From: Pagrus major
Lineage: Eukaryota > Chordata > Actinopteri > Spariformes > Sparidae
NCBI RefSeq assembly: GCF_040436345.1
Contig: NC_133216.1
Location: 17,274,110 to 17,338,109 of the forward strand
Direction: 5' to 3'
Length of the DNA: 64,000 nt
Shown here piece after piece: positions 25,616 to 64,000 of the stretch; position 1 is the stretch's first letter, and each line of letters starts with the position of its first letter. Below the pieces are notes generated by a model, which ran no database searches, had not been told where the DNA came from, and saw nothing but the letters and a program-made list of their open reading frames with translations. The translations under genes and the position numbers were made by a program.

Positions 25616-28600
25616 CTACATCTCTTTCTCTTTCTTGGTCTCCCGGGTGCTGCTCTTCAAAAAGTCGCTCCTGAGTAGCCGATAAAACAGGACGATATTC
25701 ATGGCCGTCATGATGGCCATACCCACGCTGCCCAGCGTGTAGGCCAGGAGGGGCACCTTGTCCCTGTTGAGCACGAGCCAGCGGGTCATCCAGGCCAGCG
25801 TGTTGATGCGGAATACCACGTATGTGCCCAGGTTGATCATGCTGTTGACCCGGTACAGCGTGCCTTTGGCGATGCTGGCCATACGCAGCATCTGCCTGAG
25901 GTGGAGGAACACGGAGTTTATCTCCACCAACAGGGCCACCACGGCAAAGCCCACATAGTGGCAAGACAGCACGGAGAGGCCGAAACAGGTGATCACCTAC
26001 AGAGGGAGACAGTGAGAGAGAAGGCAAGAAAGTTACAATGGATGTAGTGTGCAGCATGGTTAACACATAATGAAGATTGAGCTTAGTACAGAGATTGGTT
26101 AAGTCACCACCAATACCACAATAAAATTAGAGATGCACTGATTTTTCTGCCAAACATCAATATCAGCCGATATTCTGCTGACTGTTATCGTCCTATCAGT
26201 AATAAGATAATATTCCCTGATGGCAGCAGCCAGTGTTTAGCTGTTGTGTCACATCATTTTGTGCTGGCAGATTCATGAGTTACTGGCTTGTGACATCCCT
26301 GCCAATCTTACTTACAATCTTACATTATACTTACACCATGATATAAGTATTAGAGATGCACAGTTTATCTGGAAAAAGGACAAATTATCGGCCCATATTA
26401 GGAAATTTATATCATCAGCTGATTATCAGTATCGAGGAAATTATAGTCGATAAACGTCGCTGATAATACAAAGCCAAATTACTTTCATAAATTGAAAACC
26501 AATGAAATTATTGGTTATCTTATTGGTATCGGCCTTGAAAAGGAGGTAATCATTGGTTATCAGTGTCATCTGTCAAATGTGAAAAAAGGTTTTATTAAAG
26601 GTTGTTTAATACATTTGTAAAATGGAATCTGTGCTTTTTGAAAGAGTTAAATTATTTCTTTATTAAATTAAGATTAGTTTGTTTCCCAAACACAAAAGGG
26701 AAACAATAACAACACCAAGAATTTCACAATCATCCCTAAATAAAATGTTGGGACACTCTGATGTGCTGTTTTTAAGCTGACAAATATGAATTAATATTTT
26801 GCAACAGTTTAAGCATGAAGACATGCCTATCTTCAGATATGTTTTTAAAGACCATGGTACTTCCCAATTTGACAAAAGGACAAATGATAGTAAATATCAG
26901 CTGACACAATAGTATGCACCCCTAAAAATTCACTTTAAAATCTAATTTAAATTCAGTTAAAGCAGTTGCCAAACAAAATCCTAAAAGGAAATCATGAATA
27001 ATTTATTAGATCATATTCATCTCCACTCCCTTTCAGTGCTGATGTTTGACCGCTTTTTTTGTTACGTCTGGCAGCATGTTACTTAATGACCATGTGGAAG
27101 GTCACCGCTCCCATGATACATTTCTGCTGAGTAGTGCTTATGAAAGCCTGTTTGATAACGAACAGAAAACCTCCACAAGATGGCAGCAACATCACTCACA
27201 ACCTGTCTGACAAACAGCAGCTCCAGGAAACTGCCTGCTTACATGACACTGAAGTGTCAGGGGAAAGCATTACATACAGTATCTGATATGTTGTGACAGA
27301 AGCAAATGCTGCTGTCCAACACATTCACTGCAGCTGTGTTGCAGGTGTAAAATTTGGATGACAGAAATGTTTTTATACCAAAACAGGCTGTTCAGCCAGC
27401 TCTCCACATGAGCTGGCACCCACCCACACCACCACATTCACCAGCTTCATTCACACTCAGAGCACACTCAAAAGTGTAGCAGGAGGACAAACTGTGTTCA
27501 GACACACTGTACTTTTGTTACCACAAAAGCTGCCATGTTTATAATTCAAGAGTGCACGGTGGCAGCGAAGGGCAGATAGTGAGAGAGCAGTCCAGTCTTT
27601 GGTTAGTTAGTACAGGTCATGGGATACACTGTGGAGTGAGAGAATGGCATTTCCCATCAGTCGGGTCTCAGTTAGAGAAGCATCTTGTGTTTGTGTCGTG
27701 TGAGGTCACAGGATGCCTTCTCTAATGCAGCAAACAAACAGTCATGCGGCGTGCTGTCGTGGATTAGGCAACCGGGCATGTGGAAAGTCAGCAGCACACT
27801 AACTGGTCATTATGTTATGTATCCATTGTAATGGATGTGTCCTTGACAAAATAAAGGTTCAACGTTCAAAGGGTGTTCTTCACTAGATGTAATCAAAATG
27901 GTTTGGGGTGGCATGGATCCAACACATGCTCCATGTCACAGCAGATGAATGTCTGGCCATTCACTTTCAACATTTCCTGTCATGGACTAAAGGGAAGCTT
28001 TGACATTAATGGGAATCTGGCAATTTGTTGTTGACATCTTCATCACGACCTCTGGCCACGTTGACAAAAAAATATTAGTTCACTGTAGACTCCATAGCCG
28101 CAAAATGAAAACAGTGATTTGAGTTTCTGACTCACACACACACACACACCCCGACTAATCAGCTCAAATCAAAGCCTTCACCTGTAGTCACATTATAATG
28201 ACAGTGTTACCAAACAATGTCGGTGGACAACCCCAATGACGACAGTGAAAGCACCGTATTTAGCAACACAAACAGACCGACTCACCAAAGTCAGCGTGTC
28301 TAGGCAGCAGTTATGTCAACAGGACACAGGGCTTTTCAGTACGAAACAAAGTGACACGCTTACAGATATGTGAGATGACACCACAGTGTTTGTTGGCCGT
28401 TGACATTGTCCTATGTCATTCTAGTCAATATATTTATGAATTGGATTGGTAAGCAAATGTCATCACATGTTTGGTTTTCACCTCAAGGGTCACAGAAAAT
28501 GGCAAAAATATCAGAATCAGAATTGCTTTTCCAAAAACATTTTGTTTGGGACAAAAAATAAAATACCGTCATGTTGAAGAACAGTTATGCTCTGTTCTCA

Positions 28601-40600: not shown

Positions 40601-43600
40601 GCCTAATAAATACCTGTGACTACTGCATTTGATCCAGATTGTACCCTTTCCCAATCATACAGACCTTGAGTATAGCACTCTGCAACCACTGTGCTTCATG
40701 GAAATAGTGATTATCTTCACCAACCAAAAAAAAAGAAAGAAGGAAATCTTGGAAGTTTTCACTATTCTCTAACTTTGTATTATTTTCTTACACTAAAATG
40801 TCTGTTACGCCGTATGTTTGTTATGCCCACGTCTTTTCACAGAGCCATTAGACTACCAGAACCAGTAGAAATGTGGGCGAATTGATACAAACGTTTGCTA
40901 GTTTCCTGGCACAGTCTTGGCTTCCATGTTGCTATGAAGGGCTTAGTTTGTGTAGTTGAGACACATACTGAAAGGGGGTTTCGATTGACGCTTCAGAGCT
41001 GTTTTGTTGCTAAATGTACAGAAAAAATATGTATCAGAGTACACTTGAGATGCCAAGATGTTACTCTTAAAAAGGGAGTGAAGCTATATGACTGTGACTG
41101 TTTGTTTCTATTTATAAACACTGTATATCTGTCCATTTATATCCTCAATGTGGCAAGTTTAAGCATGGTTTTCTTTGATAAACTCTCTAAATAGATCATG
41201 TGATGTACTTTGTCAAATCATGTTACGCTACGCTGTCACGTCCTCACTGACCTGACTTCTAAATTATGCAGAGAAATGTTTTCACATACTTTTAACACCA
41301 TAACAAACACATAAATGATGGCTGCTGTATAGTACAGATCCACCCCGATCCTGCCACTTCCAATAAAAAATTAAATTAACAGCTCCTGTTAGGCGAGTGA
41401 TACACTTGAATGACAAGACGAGAGCTTGGCAACAGAAAGCAGTACACAACATCAGCACCGTCTTGGATGTAGGTCAGAAAGAGAAAACATAAAATCAGGA
41501 TGTAGTTCTATATTGCCACTTCAGGTCATTTCCCTATTTATTTTCCATAGGGTTTAAAAGCAGGAACCTGCTCTTCCCTCAGGAAACATCTCCCATCAGG
41601 CCGGCGTGCTGAGGGTCAGTATGTCAGGAAGATGACTCGCTCTGATGGGAATCAGCTAGAAACAGTTGTTTTTTTTAAAGTGGAAAGGCAGAGACGATGG
41701 AAGGCGGGTGGAGTTCAACTTTCTCAAGGCATGACAGAAGGTTGAATGCTTGGCGGGGGGTGGGGGGACTGGTCACACTGGATTGATTGTCTCTTTGTTC
41801 CTCCCTCACTTGTTCTTTGTGGCTAGACAAGAAAGACGATTATTTTGTCTTGCCCATGTCTGTGCTTCTGACAGGTGCGTTGGGGTTGTTGTTCATGATT
41901 TGTTTGTGCGGTTACTACTGTATATTGAATTCCCGGGTGCGGTAGATACATGTAGATGCAAAGGTTAGATATTCTATTGTCTGTTACGGTTAAGATGAAA
42001 CATCTGTGGCCACAATATCAGGTTTATTTCCAGCTGTAACAGTAATGATTGAAAGACCTACCACCAAGTGATGAAAAAGAAGCTCCCAGGACTGACTCAG
42101 CTTCTGGTTGAACACCATGTCACAGAAATCATAGATGAAGTAACCTGTGTGGATAAGACAGCATTCAGCCAATGTTAATGTCATGTTCGTTAATTCATTA
42201 ATTAGCCCAAACTTAACAGATTGTTTTAGACAATAGAAGCCTTGAGCGTATCAAGTGTGTCGGGGGGGACCCTGCTTCCATGACGACAGCAACCAAGATG
42301 TGTCTTGGAGAGGGGCTATTCATATCCACCAACTCCACCCCTTCCCCTCCACTAGCTGTATCCATGGTGACCGCTATTCAGAATGCTGGAAAAATAATGA
42401 AGTGTTGAGGATGGGGACGGACGAAGGGGTGTGAGGGAGCCCAGGGCTTTAGTGAGGCGGGAATTAACCTCATTATGTTATAAATTTGACACCGGGACCC
42501 TCATGTTGATGTGGTGAAATGTTTGGGTTCGTATCACCATAAACAAATGTACTAGCTACCAGCTGCAAAGATTGCTATCAAGCATTTGATTGGTTTATTG
42601 GTGTTATCTGGTCTCCATGGCAGTTCATGTTGTTTCATAAGAGCACTGACAATGGATGGTGGAAACATAGTGGCTTTTGTGGTCTTTTCAACAGCTTTTG
42701 TTTTCACCAGAGGTCAAGTTTGGGTCAAGTTTTGCCATAAACAGCCAATTTGAGCGCGTGACTCGTTAAATAAGAGCGCCAATTAACTGACATCTCTTAT
42801 CTTGCCTTTGTGTTTTTATAATGGCTGCTTCCGTACGGACACATCTGTATTCAAAACACAGAAGTGGAACAAAGAAGGAATGGATGCTCTGCAATATGTG
42901 ATGCCTGGCTCTGTACAGCTAATGTACACACAGAGAACAAAAGGAGTCAGATAATGCTCGACTTTCCATTCAGGATCCTCAGGAGTGAGATCCATTGGTA
43001 TGTTTACATGAGGGGGGAATTCCTTTCTTAAACAAGTTAGTCAAACAAGCGGGTTTCAGGCGGCCAACATCACGTCTCTGTTGGAATGACCCAGTTAAGC
43101 ATGAAAAATCTGATTAAGACACCTGGCTTAGTCTGACACTGGCCAAGTCACAGCGACATGTAAACATCTTACTAGTGAGGCTTTTTGTTTTTGTGGTCTG
43201 TGTAAACTTGACTTGCTTTGCAAAATGGGTACTTCTTTAAGCTTTATCAATCAAATGTGCCCACTGAGAGATACAGGGCTTCAGACTCACTTTTCACACG
43301 GTTGCACTGGTGCGCCAAACTTTTTCATTTAGGTGCACGAGCACATCATTTTGGGGCACCTAATAATACATTTTTAATTTAATTTCTTTGTGTAAACACA
43401 TTGCGTAAATGGTTGTAAACAGCAATTAGGTGAAAATAAATTAAATTGCAAGCCACAAGAAATTGTGATAACCTGAATCGTTTGATACGTTTGAAACTGC
43501 CACATTTCAGGCGCATCACTGCGACCAATGAAGATGTTAAGTCACCTATGACAGACTTTTAGGCGCATGTGTGACCAAAATTGTTGCAACCTGGAGCCCT

Positions 43601-50332: not shown

Positions 50333-53300
50333 ATGAATCCGTGCCAAGAACCAGGTGAACAGCAGGAGGAGGTGACTCAGATGGTATGTGAGGAGGCCGA
50401 CCTGAAAGATGGACAGTAAGTCACAACTCTTCGTCGTACCAGATAAAATATGTGATTTTTTTTTTTTTTTACGATCAAAGCTTTTCTGACCTCATCTGTA
50501 TTTGGTAGCTTTTCATCACTTGTCTTCTTCCTCGCTTTGTGTTTAGGATGAGGGAAGTAGCCGTGGAGGAGCAGAAGGTGTTGCTTGTCCGTACCAAGGG
50601 TCAGTACAGTGCTGTTGGAAGCCGGTGCACTCATTACAACGCTCCTCTAGTAAACGGTAAACCCTCTTTTACTTTCAGCTCCCCAATCTCCATACAGCAA
50701 TATCTGAATGAAGAGCTTTTTGAAATGTTTTGCATTAAAGTTGAGTCTTGTTAAGTGCCTGTTCTCTGATAATCCAGGAGCGCTGGTTGGTGAGAGAGTG
50801 AGATGTCCCTTCCATGGTGCTAGTTTTAACGTCAAAACTGGAGATATTGAAGAGTATCCAGGTCTGGACTGTCTGCCTAGTTATAAGGTAAAACATGTCT
50901 ATAGAGATCAACATTTAATGGCAATTGACATCTCTTCTCTAGGAATAACTCCAGTTTCAAATGTTGTCACATCTTAGATGGTTTAATTGCACATTATTTC
51001 CATGTAATTGGTACAAAAAATACCACTTTGTCCAAATTATAGATTTAGGCTTGAATGCTAGATTAAGCTTGGTCTTTTTACACAAACACATGAAGTCATG
51101 TTGAGGAGAAGTTGTAAATTCACCACCTGCAGACGGAGTACATGGTGAGAAAGAGGCAATGAAAGTGTACATTTGGACTTATCTGTTGCCAGATGTTGCT
51201 GTTGTTCAGGTACTTCCTCAATCTTTCAAAGCATTTCCTATGCTGCAGATCGTTGTCCAGAACATGATTTTGACCTCCACTGTGTTATGATCAGTCTTTA
51301 AACTTGCATTCTGTACCTTAACTTTTCTCTCATTTTTTTCAAAATACAGGTCAAAGTTGAGGATGGCAAGGTGTATGTTACCATTAACAAAAGTGTAAGT
51401 AATGGCAAGTTAAACAGATCAGAATGATAAATGATAAAATACATAATATTAAACAGTCCTTTGTTTGTTTGTTTCCCTCAGACTCTGAAATTGACAAAGC
51501 GGGTGAAAGAGATGTGCAGCGTGGTAACAGACATCAAACACACTATCGTGCTGATAGGAGGAGGTAAGGACTAGATGTAATAAATACACCTGAAAGTTGA
51601 AGCCTCAGGTTATTAGTCCTATTTTATTTTCTTCTAATAATTATTAGAATAATTTCTCTCTAATAATTATTTTTGGTGCACACAAATCCTGCTAGTGGGA
51701 TTAAAACAAGAGAATAAGTTCTAGTAAATATGGTGGTGTAGAGCTTCCATGTTAGTTTAAGCTCCATCTCTGAATTTATCCTCGACACACTATTAAAGTT
51801 GTGATGATACCAGAATTTTAAACTTGGCTTTAAAACTTTAAACAATACTCCTCAACACAACCTGCAAACAGATACAGGAAAAAGTTATTGAACACGTTTG
51901 TAAGGTTGTAATGTTAATATCTGGGTTGAGTCTGATTGTACATTTGTTTTATTATAGCTTCTATTATAGTACTTTTGATTCTTATCAAATGCAGATATCG
52001 TATCATTTTAAGCACGAGGTATCTAAAAAGAATTGAAGTATTGATACTTCTGACAACCTTCCACTGAATAAGAGTTTTGTGATTTCAGGCCCTGCCGCCC
52101 TGGTTTGTGCTGAAACGCTGCGGCAGCAGTGCTACCAAGGTCGAATCATCATGGTAACCAAAGACAGCCTGCCTCCATTTGATAAGCCCAAACTGAGTAA
52201 GGTGAGAACTCAATTAGAGTGGAGTGGTAGCCTGTATTCATGTGTATTTGTTGCTGTTGCTGACCATCCTGCCTTGTTGAGTAAGTAGATTATTCTGTCA
52301 GTGTTTATAGAAGTAAGTTTTTAGTAAAGGGCGTTTCCTCTTTCAGGCTTTGAATGTAGACAGTAGCAGCATTGTCCTCCGGTCAAGTGACTTTTATCAG
52401 AAGTATGGGATCGAGGTGTGGACACAGAAGGAGGTGAGAAGCAAAAGGACTATTTGTTATGTGTTTAAAAAAAACTGTTATTCTTTTTGGTCGTGTTAAG
52501 AGCTGTGTTTTGTGTTGCAGGTGGTGTCTGTAAATCCAGCTGATAAGGTGGTAAAGTTGAACGATGGCACTTTGCAGCATTACGACCAGCTTCTCATCTC
52601 AACTGGCTGCAGGTCAGAGTCATCATCTTGCTGCTTGATAAGGTTTCCATGTGACAACAGCGATATATATTAACAGTCCTTATTTTGTTCATAGAGCGCG
52701 GCCACTCAACTGTCCTGGCTACGACCTGACGGGAGTGAAGTTACTGCAGAGATATGAAGACGCAAAAGAGATTCACAGCTCCGGGCTGGGCCAGAAAGTT
52801 GTCGTAATCGGAGCCTCCTTCATAGGTTATCAGATTCAGTTTCTCTCAACATAGCTGAATGAAACTTGGATTGATCATCTTTACAAAAATAAGCATGTAG
52901 GTGTTATTTGTGATGCTCCGTTTGGAAGGTGTCTTTACCTCATTCACAGCCACCTCTATGCTAAAACATTGAACAGAGTAAGATAAAGCTACTTAAGAAA
53001 CTATATTATTAAATAATAACTTATTTATTTTTTTCATTAACACAATAGGTATGGAGGTGGCATCCTACTTATCAGACAAAGCGGCCAGCGTCAGCGTGGT
53101 TGGCTCCACCAGATACCCGTATGAGCGATCTCTGGGGCCAGAGATCGGCAAAATGAGTACGCAAGTAAGAAACAACCATGTTTGAGTCGCCTGACACTAG
53201 CTTTTATTAAATGAAACAATCTTTAAAACATGTTCCTCCTTTTAAGATGTTGGAGGAACAAAACGTGAAGTTCTACATGAATGATCAAGTCACAGAGATC

Positions 53301-57015: not shown

Positions 57016-58165
57016 GTTACAGAGTAAAATACAAAGGTCGGTTGTACATGGTGATGAGAGCGTTGTTTCATATTCCATTAACTTTTATTGCTGATAGCTC
57101 TGTTTGTTCACAGTAATGCTTTAATCGATCATAAATGTTTCCTGCAGAGATGTATGTTATTGTTTAGGCTTTATCTTATAACGGAGATAAAACTGCTTTT
57201 TTTAGTCTCATTTTGAAATTCAAATCCAGATAAAGAGAAAAACAATTAAATGTGGTAATGTGTGGTACATAACTAATGATCAGGTCTTAAAATAAATGTT
57301 GGGCAGCTTCAATAACCACTGATTATTCATACATCATATGTACTGTCATCAGCCTGTGGGGTGCAGTATGGGGATGTGATTTCTGACAAGGATTTTTTTT
57401 TGTTTCACTGACTAGATTGTTTCTCAATCTTTGCTACGTCATGTTTGTTTTAGGTTTTGACAGTCGGACAGTTGCTTTTCTAATTGCTGTGTAACAAAAC
57501 ACAATGTAATAATCTCCAGGACAAGTAAAACTTTTCTTATCAAACATATCAGAGAGTGATCATTATGTCTGTGGATTTCTATTTCCAGTCTTTCATTTGT
57601 TTCGTGCTTTAATAACGCATTCTATATTTTATGAACCGCCCACTTCCTGCAACCAGGGCAGTCCACTCTCTATAGTCTTTACTTACTCATAATTACTAGT
57701 TGGAAATATTTAAGTGCATTTAATAACTATACTTGCTTGTCAGTACAAGTTGCTCTTTCATGCTGTACAATGTCAGCAGAATACAGGGAAGCACAGACAC
57801 TGGTGAGACTCTTTTTCTTGTATATTTGCACTTTGTTTACTTGGACATTAATCAAGTAGGTCAAGGTTGAAGCACAGAACGTTTGAACAACTATTACTTA
57901 TTAAATGATCTTATTTTATTTACTACACAAGGTTTGATTTTAGTATGAGGACGCTAGTAAACCGTGATGATATTCACAAATCACAAGACAATTGTCCTCA
58001 ACTACATCACAAGAGGTTGGTGATGATTAGCACATCAAATGATTTGTTTCTAATGTACAGTTATGGACTTAAATCAAATAATCAAAGTCTAAAAACATGT
58101 TACAGTTGTATTTACATGGTTATACTCAGTCTTTGAAATATTTCCCTCAGGATTCAGCTGCATCT

Positions 58166-61100
58166 CTATTTGTTTATTTTGGAGCACTGTTTCACCGATG
58201 TTCCCAGTTTGTCAGCCAGCAGGAACGGGTTGAGGTGACAGTACTGAAGGGAAAAGAATAAGAAAAGTCACTTTGATGTGGGACTGAAATTAATCTTTGG
58301 TTGCTATCAAAGCTCACACTGTGCAGCTACTACAAAGAGTTATTCTTTCTGTAAAACTTGAGAAATTCTCAAATATATAAGTACTTTACAGATTTTAAGA
58401 TTAAGAAACCTGTGTTTAACCTGATTCTTGTGTGCAAAATGTGGGTCAACTTCACTTCTGAATGCAGTAAGTAGTTAATCTTTCAAAATAAAAGCATTTT
58501 AGCCATGGTAAAGGCAGACCATTAGCTACCTGTGGTGTTGACTCTGAGCTGGGCTTATCCGGTTTATCGGATATCTGGATATCAAAATCTGGAGAAAAGC
58601 GGGAACTCTGGAGGATTGCTGCCATCTCTCCATTTACCTCTACGGCCACACCTTTCTGCATAGCACAAAAGAAAACCGACAACAGAGCAGATTAGTTTTT
58701 AGATGTGAATGTGGAGTTTTTTTCCCTATGAAATCAAAAACACAAACATGCTTTTGCCACAGGCTATCAAAAGCCCTTGTGTCAACAGCAATAGATAAAG
58801 CACTTCAGCACTGGACTGATGTGAGTTTTATCCTACCTTGAAACAGTGGGAAGAATCAAAGTCCAGCTGGTCTGGGAAATCAGCCAGAGTTCCTTTATAG
58901 GTCACAGTTGCCTTAGACACGACTGGACTTTTGGGCAGCTTAAACATCCGGTAGGTGGACGAAGCATAGTTGATGTCACCTGCAAAACAAAGAGCAGGCT
59001 TAGCTGTGGAATAAAAATCTTCACACGTCATCAAAAGTCAGTGCCGTCTTTGTGGTACCTGCTTTTGCTTTGAGCTCATTGTTATAGACCACAATGTGGC
59101 TCGATGAGACGAGGTAAGGCGTGCTGAATCCTACGCTGTGGGCCAACGAAATCAGATCCTCCCAGAACAGAGAGCCGCCCATTCCTTCACCTAAGCCCCA
59201 GCACAAAAAGATCAGACAAAGGGGATATTTAATGTTACTGATGCAGGGATTCTGTGCTGTATTTATGCTTTTTACATTGAATTTTTAGACCACAATACAA
59301 AGTGATTTTACCCCACAGGCGTGGATCTTTCTTCATGTGATCAGGAATGACTTTGCTGGCATACATGTCACTAAAGTAGAGTTCACCTCCCTCCTGTGTA
59401 GAATGAGAGCATGAAGACACTATAAGACACTTAAATCTGAAAAATTTACTTTACTTTAAAACATTTAGGAAACCAATTACCTCAAAATTACCAAGTAAAG
59501 TAGACTAATACATTGTTTCCACCGTTATTTCCTGTTAACCTATACTTTGGCCGACACAAGCTGATAATGAAAACCCCCAACACGGGCCCATTTGTTCTCA
59601 GGGGGCACGTTTCTGGTGAAATTATGTAAATGCAAGATTTAAGGTACTACAATTTAATAAAAAATTAAACAAGTATGAAATTTGGCAGAGAGTATCCTGA
59701 AATTAACAGGGAAGTCGCAAAATAACATTCTGGTAGCTTGCTGCCATTCTATTTTAAAATATCACCCAAAACATCCCCAAAAATACAAGACAATTACTGT
59801 CCGCTTGACAAATTCTCATCAAAAATTATTATTTTCCAGCACTTTATGATGACTATCACTGCCTCACTTGTACATAGAAAACTTCCCAAGTTAATAAGCT
59901 TTCATTTGAATCCAAGATGAACTTTCTACGTGGAAAATTGCACTTGCGGTGGCATCACTTCTCCAGAAACATGAACCAAACCAAAAGGCGAGGTGTGCCT
60001 CAGCGCCCCCTGACACCAAACAGCCCTGAGTTGGGGCTGATCATTAACGGCCCAAGGTACGGGCTAACAGGAAGTAATCGTTTTTTAAAAAAGGACTCGA
60101 CCTTTAAACATACATTACTGTACATCTTTCTTTTTAATGTAGCCGTTATAAATTCTTCAGACTAACCTTCAGGACATTGTAAGCTTGCTGCAGCACGGCT
60201 CTTTTATCAGCACACAAACAGATTACACAGTTGGATCTGGAAATATTGGAGGGAAAACAGTTTATCAACTAATCAAAGCTGTCTTATTAGTAACAGACCA
60301 TAAACAAGTACAAGGTCCAGAGTTAATTCATTTATCATTCTACAGCAAAGGGTTGATCAATGACTTTCATTCATGTGCACGCTTTGAACCTACAGCACAA
60401 CATCGATGGAGTCACTCTGTATGCCGGCCTCACTCAGCTTCTCCATGTACCCCAGGACAAAAGACACGTTGGGCTCCTTGTAGCCGAACGTCTTCTGATG
60501 ATACTCGATGTATTGACGAGACGTTTTGACCTGAGGAAATGTGAGTTAAATCAGTAGAAAGCACAGAAGTCAAGTGCCAGACGATGTGTGGACAAACAAG
60601 CACATGCAATCACCAGCTCCTCTGTCATATCGATCCCCGTCACGTGTCCGCTCTCTCCAACCAGTTTACTGAAGGCGTAGGAGTCTCTGCCGGAGCCGCT
60701 GCCGAGGTCCAGGGCCCTGCAGCCCTCGAGCTTCGCTGGAAAGGGGAGGCCACAGCCGAAGAATCTGAGGAAAGATACTGTTTAATACAACAGCAGCAGG
60801 GTTTTCCCTACCATCAATATGGAGAGCATCAAAATTAACTAAATGACTTTTCAAGGATGATGGCTGTAGTAAGTCTTCAGTGGACTTTTTGAGTGCTGTT
60901 TATTTATTATCTGCTTTTCCAGCTGCCCGTAGAAAGATTTGGTGATGATATTGGATAATTAATTTATCTTGGGGAAGTTCCTGTGTTTTTTAATATCACA
61001 ATATATATCACAAAAAAACAAAATCATCACAATATTAGTTTTCTGTCAGTGTTATGCGGCAATACCCTGGATAATGCATGCTTTTTCAGCAGTATGCATG

Positions 61101-61760
61101 TTTTCTGATGTGTCTACAGAGAAGTTTATTTAGCCATTTGTCGATGAAACTGTGTCAGGATCATGAAGGGATTTTTAAAACTACTTTTGTTGTTGCTGAT
61201 GAATCAAGTGGCACTGCCACAAAACAGTTCACTGCTGTCGTTCCCACGCTTGAGACTAAATATTTGCAGACTCCAGTGATGACGTGCATGAGACACTTGT
61301 GTACAGTAACCGCTGTAGATGTCTGTGATGCAGTAAAAGCAAAAGTGAGAGTGAAGACTGCAAACCGTACTTGTTGGTTACCTCCGGATGAACCAGGCTG
61401 AGTGCATCTCTGACACTTCTTGGCAGCGGGCGGCAGGGCACACTGCAGGCACTAGTCTGCACGTCACCAGTGGACTCCAGGAGGCTGCCATAGTACTTCT
61501 GCACACATGATGGACAATATATGTGGTCAACAACTGTCCTAACACGCGCTTTAACATTTAACTACACTGCTTTAAAGTCAGTATCTTCAACTTCAAGAAC
61601 TTTTGAATGACACACGACTGAGCAGCTATTATGCAACATGTCAGAAAAGCTTCAGAAGAAACAACTTCTGCACAAACTCCGGATAGAAATCAAGCTGATC
61701 AGTGTTTCATTCAAAATAAAGTACCTTCACATTTTCCCGCACGTCGTCACAAGTCGCCAT
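58166..61760 (-). CDS. as3mt: Arsenite methyltransferase
   Basis: Ten exons join in frame into 360 residues (human AS3MT has 375): 61725-61760 (ATG at 61760), 61371-61498, 60614-60764, 60394-60530, 60167-60236, 59312-59393, 59059-59190, 58837-58979, 58530-58655, 58166-58243. The enzyme transfers methyl groups from S-adenosylmethionine to arsenite, giving mono- and dimethyl arsenicals, in the cytosol. The SAM motif LDLGSGSGRD is at 73-82 and VTGIDM follows. Conserved cysteines are present at 30, 59 and 154 (SNCV), matching human 32, 61 and 156. The fourth, human Cys206 in LWGECLGG, is Gly204 here (LWGEGMGG). The C-terminus ends QCSKINK without the Cys-rich tail of mammals. The gene has no stop or frameshift, so it looks intact but possibly changed in catalysis. 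It is convergent with aifm4 and divergent from prpf8. Confidence 0.95.
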
Positions 61761-63726: not shown

Positions 63727-64000
63727 ATGGCAGCTACCTTCCCCTACAGAGGGGTCCCTGCAGGGATGCCACCAGGTGTACCCCCTCCTACGCCAGTCCC
63801 AGACTACATGTCCGAGGAAAAACTGCAAGAGAAAGGTATGTTGACATTCACTCAATGTAGTACATTCATTGTGTGATTTTTAAAGCTTGAAACGACATAA
63901 TTAATTTTCTCATTTATTTGAAATGTTTTCCAACATTACAGCAAGAAAATGGCAGCAGTTGCAGGCAAAGCGCTACTCAGAAAAGAGAAAGTTTGGCTTT
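63727..64000 (+). CDS. prpf8: Pre-mRNA-processing-splicing factor 8, N-terminus (partial)
   Basis: Two coding exons are visible: 63727-63835 (ATG in gcgccATGG context, 36 codons plus one base) and 63942 to the window end. They join in frame (...[15 protein letters not shown]...). PRPF8 is the large core protein of the U5 snRNP that cradles the spliceosome's catalytic RNA centre in the nucleus. The block [20 protein letters not shown] and the following KRYSEKRKFGF are nearly identical to vertebrate PRPF8. Only the proline-rich start (FPYRGVPAGMPPGVPPPTPV) differs, as it does among vertebrates. About 55 of more than 2300 residues are in the window. The gene runs off the right edge. Its closeness to tlcd2 agrees with human 17p13.3. 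Confidence 0.96.

Follow-up and report, generated by a model that had tools for sequence, protein, structure and literature searches.

The closest described relatives of the gene reported here are the arsenite methyltransferases, i.e. AS3MT of vertebrates and ArsM of algae and bacteria, in which four cysteines (numbered 32, 61, 156 and 206 in the human enzyme) serve as family markers. Among the mutants described for human AS3MT, C156S and C206S methylate neither iAs nor MMA; C32S and C61S retain activity on MMA; and the same source places the C-terminal cysteines at positions 360, 368, 369 and 375 (PMC3877260). The mouse mutants C157S and C207S are likewise described as arsenic-methylation-dead (PMC9013690), and Cys250 of the human enzyme has been reported as essential (PMC4211708). 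Among bacterial enzymes with a reduced set of cysteines, the ArsM of Bacillus sp. CX-1 is reported to require Cys145 and Cys195 (PMC6950371).

An AS3MT-like gene (hereafter, the window gene) lies at 58166..61760 on the minus strand of the window, that is, the whole stretch of 64,000 nucleotides from contig C2 of Pagrus major that was analyzed. It has 10 coding exons, from 61760-61725 (first) to 58243-58166 (last), and encodes 360 amino acids. Each of its nine introns begins with GT and ends with AG, and nothing interrupts the frame before the terminal stop. The initial annotation is right in this respect: the gene is intact, and simple decay does not seem to be at work. The protein is homologous over most of its length to characterized arsenite methyltransferases, as its PDB matches indicate: 8xt7 (human AS3MT, E 1.8e-91, residues 36-324), 5evj (1.9e-73, 5-319) and 4fr0 (2e-62, 5-320). 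Identity with human AS3MT is 50.2% over 279 common columns. Pfam PF13847 is matched at 104.9 bits against a cut-off of 27, as in a SAM-binding methyltransferase, whereas NCBIfam PRK11873 reaches 146.7 bits against a curated cut-off of 263; the best PRK11873 matches in the five genomes with bacterial relatives of the window-gene type (182-194 bits) are likewise below 263. The main features are the following (positions of the SAM-binding motif and of the cysteine codons were counted from the exon table):

57915..57920, minus strand: candidate polyadenylation signal AATAAA, 3' of the stop, noted by eye from the pattern alone
59059..59190, minus strand: exon 7, which completes GEGMGGSLFWEDL...; 132 long, equal to exon 7 of the copy on contig C1 described below
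59183..59185, minus strand: GGA (TCC on the plus strand), Gly204 in the spliced gene, replaces human Cys206
60167..60236, minus strand: exon 5 in the rebuilt exon table, encodes SNCVICLCADK
60212..60214, minus strand: TGT, Cys159, replaces human Val161, a residue of the SAM shell of the published human model
60218..60220, minus strand: TGT, Cys157, replaces human Asn159, which is Asn in 84/84 relatives
60227..60229, minus strand: TGT, Cys154, retained equivalent of human Cys156
60683..60709, minus strand: SAM-binding motif DLGSGSGRD, retained
60752..60754, minus strand: TGT, Cys59, retained equivalent of human Cys61
61445..61447, minus strand: TGC, Cys30, retained equivalent of human Cys32
63727..63834, plus strand: first 36 codons of prpf8 (PDB match PRP8, E 2.9e-05), head to head with the window gene and running off the window

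On the 3' side of the window gene, a scan for bacterial promoters and terminators, whose models are ill-suited to a fish gene, gave nothing beyond shuffles, and a tRNA scan of the whole window gave none.

The protein has cysteines at residues 4, 30, 34, 59, 70, 154, 157, 159, 291, 337 and 355, and residues 200-207 read LWGEGMGG. The observation from which this work started, namely a GGA codon for Gly204 together with Cys30, Cys59 and Cys154 in place, is thus reproduced in the rebuilt spliced gene and its 360-residue product, and the missing cysteine is indeed the equivalent of Cys206: the aligned column is Cys in all 84 relatives and Gly in the window gene, which retains the equivalents of Cys32, Cys61 and Cys156. 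The sequence comes from a single assembly, so that an error of sequencing or assembly, or a rare allele, has to be considered at this codon. This is highly improbable: GGA differs at two bases from both cysteine codons, TGT and TGC, and hence a single base error does not explain it; furthermore, the remainder of the exon is clean and the same protein carries other active-site changes. Since the codon lies entirely within exon 7, Gly204 is not the product of a splice choice either. An alternative exon 7 bearing the cysteine, a possibility raised by the initial annotation, was not found within the window, where the exon-7 peptide of the C1 copy matched only 59191-59057 (E 8.6e-12; next best, 0.38). 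Across the window gene span, the three minus-strand frames contain the pattern GE[C/U/stop/G][L/I/M] a single time. A past selenocysteine codon was also considered, given that a single step separates GGA from TGA; nothing was seen in its support.

The assembly of Pagrus major (786 Mb, 25 contigs) was then searched for other copies, scoring the best candidates only in a first look. With the window protein as query, two loci were retrieved: (i) the window itself on C2 (nine exon hits); and (ii) C1:27.217-27.221 Mb (seven exon hits). The protein encoded by the latter retrieved C1, C2 and one match on C13 at E 4.99; no third as3mt copy appeared among the best candidates scored with either protein. 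The C1 copy (C1:27,216,422-27,222,421; 11 exons, 378 aa) has the four cysteines, at 40, 69, 164 and 214, within a protein that reads LWGECIGGAL and SNCVVNLSPDK. Besides, it ends in a Cys-rich tail (GGCC...ACCK) encoded at C1:27222314-27222421, which the last exon of the window gene (58166-58243) does not have. Its neighbors are a CNNM gene, a frame with WBP-1-like sequence under the Pfam cut-off and a DNA-polymerase palm domain, surroundings which we take to match the CNNM2 and WBP1L side of the human AS3MT neighborhood. In consequence, the C1 copy is likely the AS3MT orthologue, and it is near certain that the window gene is a second as3mt copy and not the only one of this fish. In the C1 copy, the intron that follows exon 3 contains what is presumably a Tc1-type transposon remnant (locus L009, ~1680-2870).

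This finding modifies the frame in which the codon was first read. The initial annotation treated the window gene as "the" as3mt, which implied that the only arsenite methyltransferase of the fish had lost an arsenic-binding cysteine. The GGA codon itself speaks for such a reading, which is nonetheless virtually untenable, and refuted for this assembly, by the four-cysteine as3mt on another contig; this copy, with LWGECIGG, is precisely the second, cysteine-keeping gene that the annotation had proposed to look for. As a result, the change in the window gene need not alter the arsenic methylation of the fish: the initial observation is confirmed, while its interpretation is supported only in part.

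The neighborhood of the window gene is a different one. On the side away from prpf8 there are exons for TLC and Rieske domains. The TLC-domain frames (PF03798), at 25619-25996 and 41993-42250 on the minus strand, are far apart and perhaps belong to one TLCD-type gene or to two. The Rieske-domain frames (PF00355) are at 50509-50974 on the plus strand; after them come frames that resemble AIF on visual inspection, of which the one tested (52037-52285) had no Pfam match, and an AIFM3/AIFM4-like gene possibly adjoins the window gene. Given these surroundings and the relationships described below, the window gene does not behave as a one-to-one orthologue of human AS3MT, for which a shared neighborhood and the closest relationship would be expected. 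A duplicated block in common with the CNNM side of C1 was also considered and rejected, as none of the nine CNNM matches in the genome is on C2; a simple whole-genome-duplication block thus gains no support, though a block of this kind is possible. In passing, four CNNM-like exon hits were noted at C12:25801360-25804014 (minus strand). A large CNNM exon (C12:25832525-25833889) lies ~28 kb away, and the four hits may be either subsequent exons of the same gene or part of a separate one.

The window gene is a fast-evolving AS3MT paralogue, 52% identical to the C1 copy. Over the 279 shared columns, identity amounts to 52.3% between the window and C1 proteins, 50.2% between the window protein and human AS3MT, and 64.5% between the C1 protein and human AS3MT. 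The two fish genes agree in the lengths of exons 2-7 but not in those of exons 8-10 (143/126/78 in the window gene versus 140/123/108 in the C1 copy). Two trees were built: (i) a first one with 30 of the 80 bacterial ArsM sequences and the two algal ones; and (ii) a second one with 22 other bacterial rows, without algae and with the three trait residues masked. In the first, the C1 copy is sister to human AS3MT (98/84); the window gene falls outside this pair, on an end branch (1.63) three to four times as long as those of C1 and human (0.42 and 0.53, respectively). The second also joins C1 with human (97/80). A forced grouping of the window gene with C1 is not rejected by either tree (p-AU 0.119 and 0.146, respectively). 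The best reading of these trees is that the duplication predates the fish-tetrapod split; a duplication in the fish line followed by fast evolution is possible. A second AS3MT lineage is not known from mammals. Among titles and the beginnings of abstracts, mostly from outside the subscription journals, no paper on a fish or teleost AS3MT paralogue was found.

The replacement of Cys206 is not the only change in the active site; N159C and V161C, on which the initial annotation is silent, accompany it. The window protein was compared with 84 relatives (the C1 copy, human 8xt7, CrArsM 5evj, CmArsM 4fr0 and 80 bacterial ArsM loci), picked by similarity and conserved motifs, so that the sets lean towards canonical enzymes; the window paralogue is represented by one sequence from one fish species. 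Where human AS3MT reads SNCVINLVPDK, the window protein reads SNCVICLCADK, with a CVICLC stretch that starts at Cys154. The Asn of SNCVxNL, which is uniform in the sets examined (no published criterion was seen for it), is thereby replaced by Cys157. At the column of Val161, a residue within the 5 A SAM shell of the published human AS3MT model (PMC3790734 Table 5), Cys occurs in just one of the 84 relatives. A wider set of 142 rows was obtained by adding 58 of 60 further loci (two, L116 and L117, gave no match), all 58 being counted although five repeat earlier genes (L108-L112) and four (L113, L114, L115 and L156) are doubtful as ArsM or in their alignment; in this set Cys occupies the Cys206 column in 141/142 rows, the remaining one being a gap, and Asn occupies the Asn159 column in 139/142. 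One of the doubtful rows, the divergent bacterial ArsM-like L113 (G003:C84:4942-5430), reads SECSFSLLPNK; its residue is Cys in both the 154 and the 204 column, and Ser in the Asn159 column. A scan of viral contigs gave nine pattern matches and no relatives.

The window gene keeps 46 of the 55 columns that are invariant in the others. Of the nine columns at which it departs, two belong to a gapped loop in which C1 is likewise divergent; counted in this manner, C1 shows 4 departures among 57 columns. In the SAM shell, the window protein differs from human AS3MT at 7 of 28 residues (C206G, V161C, R57K, Y58F, Y59F, Q107L and I136M), and C1 at 2 of 28. Other conserved residues are altered too, i.e. 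C85S and R229Y. By contrast, the loss of Cys250 says nothing special, since that column is Ile in the window gene and Phe in C1. The loop 152-162 has three substitutions and holds two of the four cysteine gains, a concentration with a hypergeometric value of 0.0014 for a loop that was chosen post hoc.

Such a list can be read in two ways. The intact frame, the SAM motif, the conservation of most invariant columns and a dN far below a saturated dS together suggest that selection has maintained the window gene for an altered activity, and a retained paralogue with changed activity is, in our judgment, the probable reading. Its main rival, which we consider unlikely, is relaxed selection: a redundant duplicate, still open, would be losing its function, and both the glycine and the extra cysteines would be drift. 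The long end branch in both trees fits such a loss, as do the 9 departures at 55 invariant columns against 4 at 57 in C1, and the intact C1 copy would make the window gene dispensable. Moreover, alanine mutants at two of the altered positions of human AS3MT, those of Q107L and I136M, are reported to retain 22% and 15% of Vmax, respectively (PMC3790734). Together with R229Y and C85S, these two substitutions fit a general loosening as well as they fit a rebuilt site. Nevertheless, the 10 exons have no stop, frameshift or broken splice site even though the split appears to be old in the trees, 46 of the 55 invariant columns are kept and the SAM motif is intact. Besides, dN is 0.47 and dS is 2.55, a saturated value, both as given by NG86 alone among three methods. 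Relaxed or shifted selection had been deemed plausible in the initial annotation; its relaxed form survives as a rival, weakened by the conserved columns and by the low dN against a saturated dS. Overall, the sequence comparisons favor, with moderate confidence, a divergent AS3MT paralogue retained by selection, with a rebuilt metalloid-binding active site.

If the gene is indeed retained with a changed activity, its protein would still bind SAM, while the Cys156/Cys206 dithiol pair would be unusable and the protein would be a poor or inactive classical arsenite methylase. By their spacing, Cys145 and Cys195 of the Bacillus sp. CX-1 enzyme would correspond to that pair; the residue lost here is thus kept even by a reduced enzyme, from which we infer that the window protein is no efficient classical arsenite methylase. 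Arsenite methylation in Pagrus major would then be carried out by the C1 copy. The clustering of Cys154, Cys157 and Cys159 suggests, as a hypothesis, that the thiols have been relocated: the soft-metal ligands would most likely now be in the CVICLC loop, perhaps with the addition of Cys59, and the loop would hold a thiophilic substrate (an arsenical, another metalloid or a thiol) beside the SAM methyl group. That clustering presumably resembles the three-cysteine site of the ArsR-type As(III) sensors, which have an unrelated fold. A relocated-thiol site of this type is, for now, a tentative proposal. Equally tentative is its evolutionary extension, in which an AS3MT lineage older than the fish-tetrapod split would have moved its thiols from Cys156/Cys206 to a compact CxxCxC loop near the SAM methyl and come to act on a new substrate, for instance an arsenical in methylated or organic form or some other thiophilic element.

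The loop admits another explanation, which we regard as doubtful, namely that the window protein still methylates arsenic because the CVICLC loop and Cys59 form a substitute three-thiol site that compensates for the loss of Cys206. The two new cysteines lie three and five residues past Cys154, the second of them at the place of Val161, which the human model puts no more than 5 A from SAM (PMC3790734 Table 5), and an ArsM with a single conserved cysteine and two proposed histidine ligands is reported to methylate arsenite (PMC8649762). By analogy with that enzyme, TtArsM, the window protein may have some residual arsenic activity. Against such a compensation, Asn159 is uniform (84/84) and its loss may cost activity, and Bacillus sp. 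CX-1 ArsM requires the cysteines that seem to be its 156/206 pair (PMC6950371). Returning to the retained paralogue of changed activity, the suggestion in the initial annotation of another substrate or role appears plausible; that of reduced or changed methylation would apply to the window protein, a probably poor methylase, but need not extend to the fish, whose C1 copy is intact. If retained, a vertebrate paralogue that alters two otherwise uniform active-site positions would constitute a natural experiment on the thiols needed for arsenic methylation, and it might help to understand why the arsenic chemistry of fish is unusual.

In general terms, the window gene can be compared with three groups of known systems: (i) vertebrate AS3MT (human 8xt7 and the C1 copy), with which it shares homology along its length, the SAM motif and the equivalents of Cys32, Cys61 and Cys156, but from which it differs by Cys206->Gly, Asn159->Cys, Val161->Cys and Cys85->Ser, by the lack of a Cys-rich tail and, with respect to the C1 copy, by its contig and neighbors; (ii) algal and bacterial ArsM (CrArsM 5evj, CmArsM 4fr0 and the 80 bacterial loci), which belong to the same family by sequence and share three of the four cysteines with the window gene but, unlike it, carry Cys in the Cys206 column and Asn in the Asn159 column in 82/82; and (iii) reduced-cysteine ArsMs, i.e. 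those of Bacillus sp. CX-1 (two conserved cysteines) and Thermus (TtArsM, one), which, like the window gene, have fewer classical cysteines. Within this last group, the Bacillus enzyme, unlike the window gene, depends on Cys145 and Cys195 (PMC6950371), and TtArsM is a distant enzyme with proposed histidine ligands (PMC8649762).
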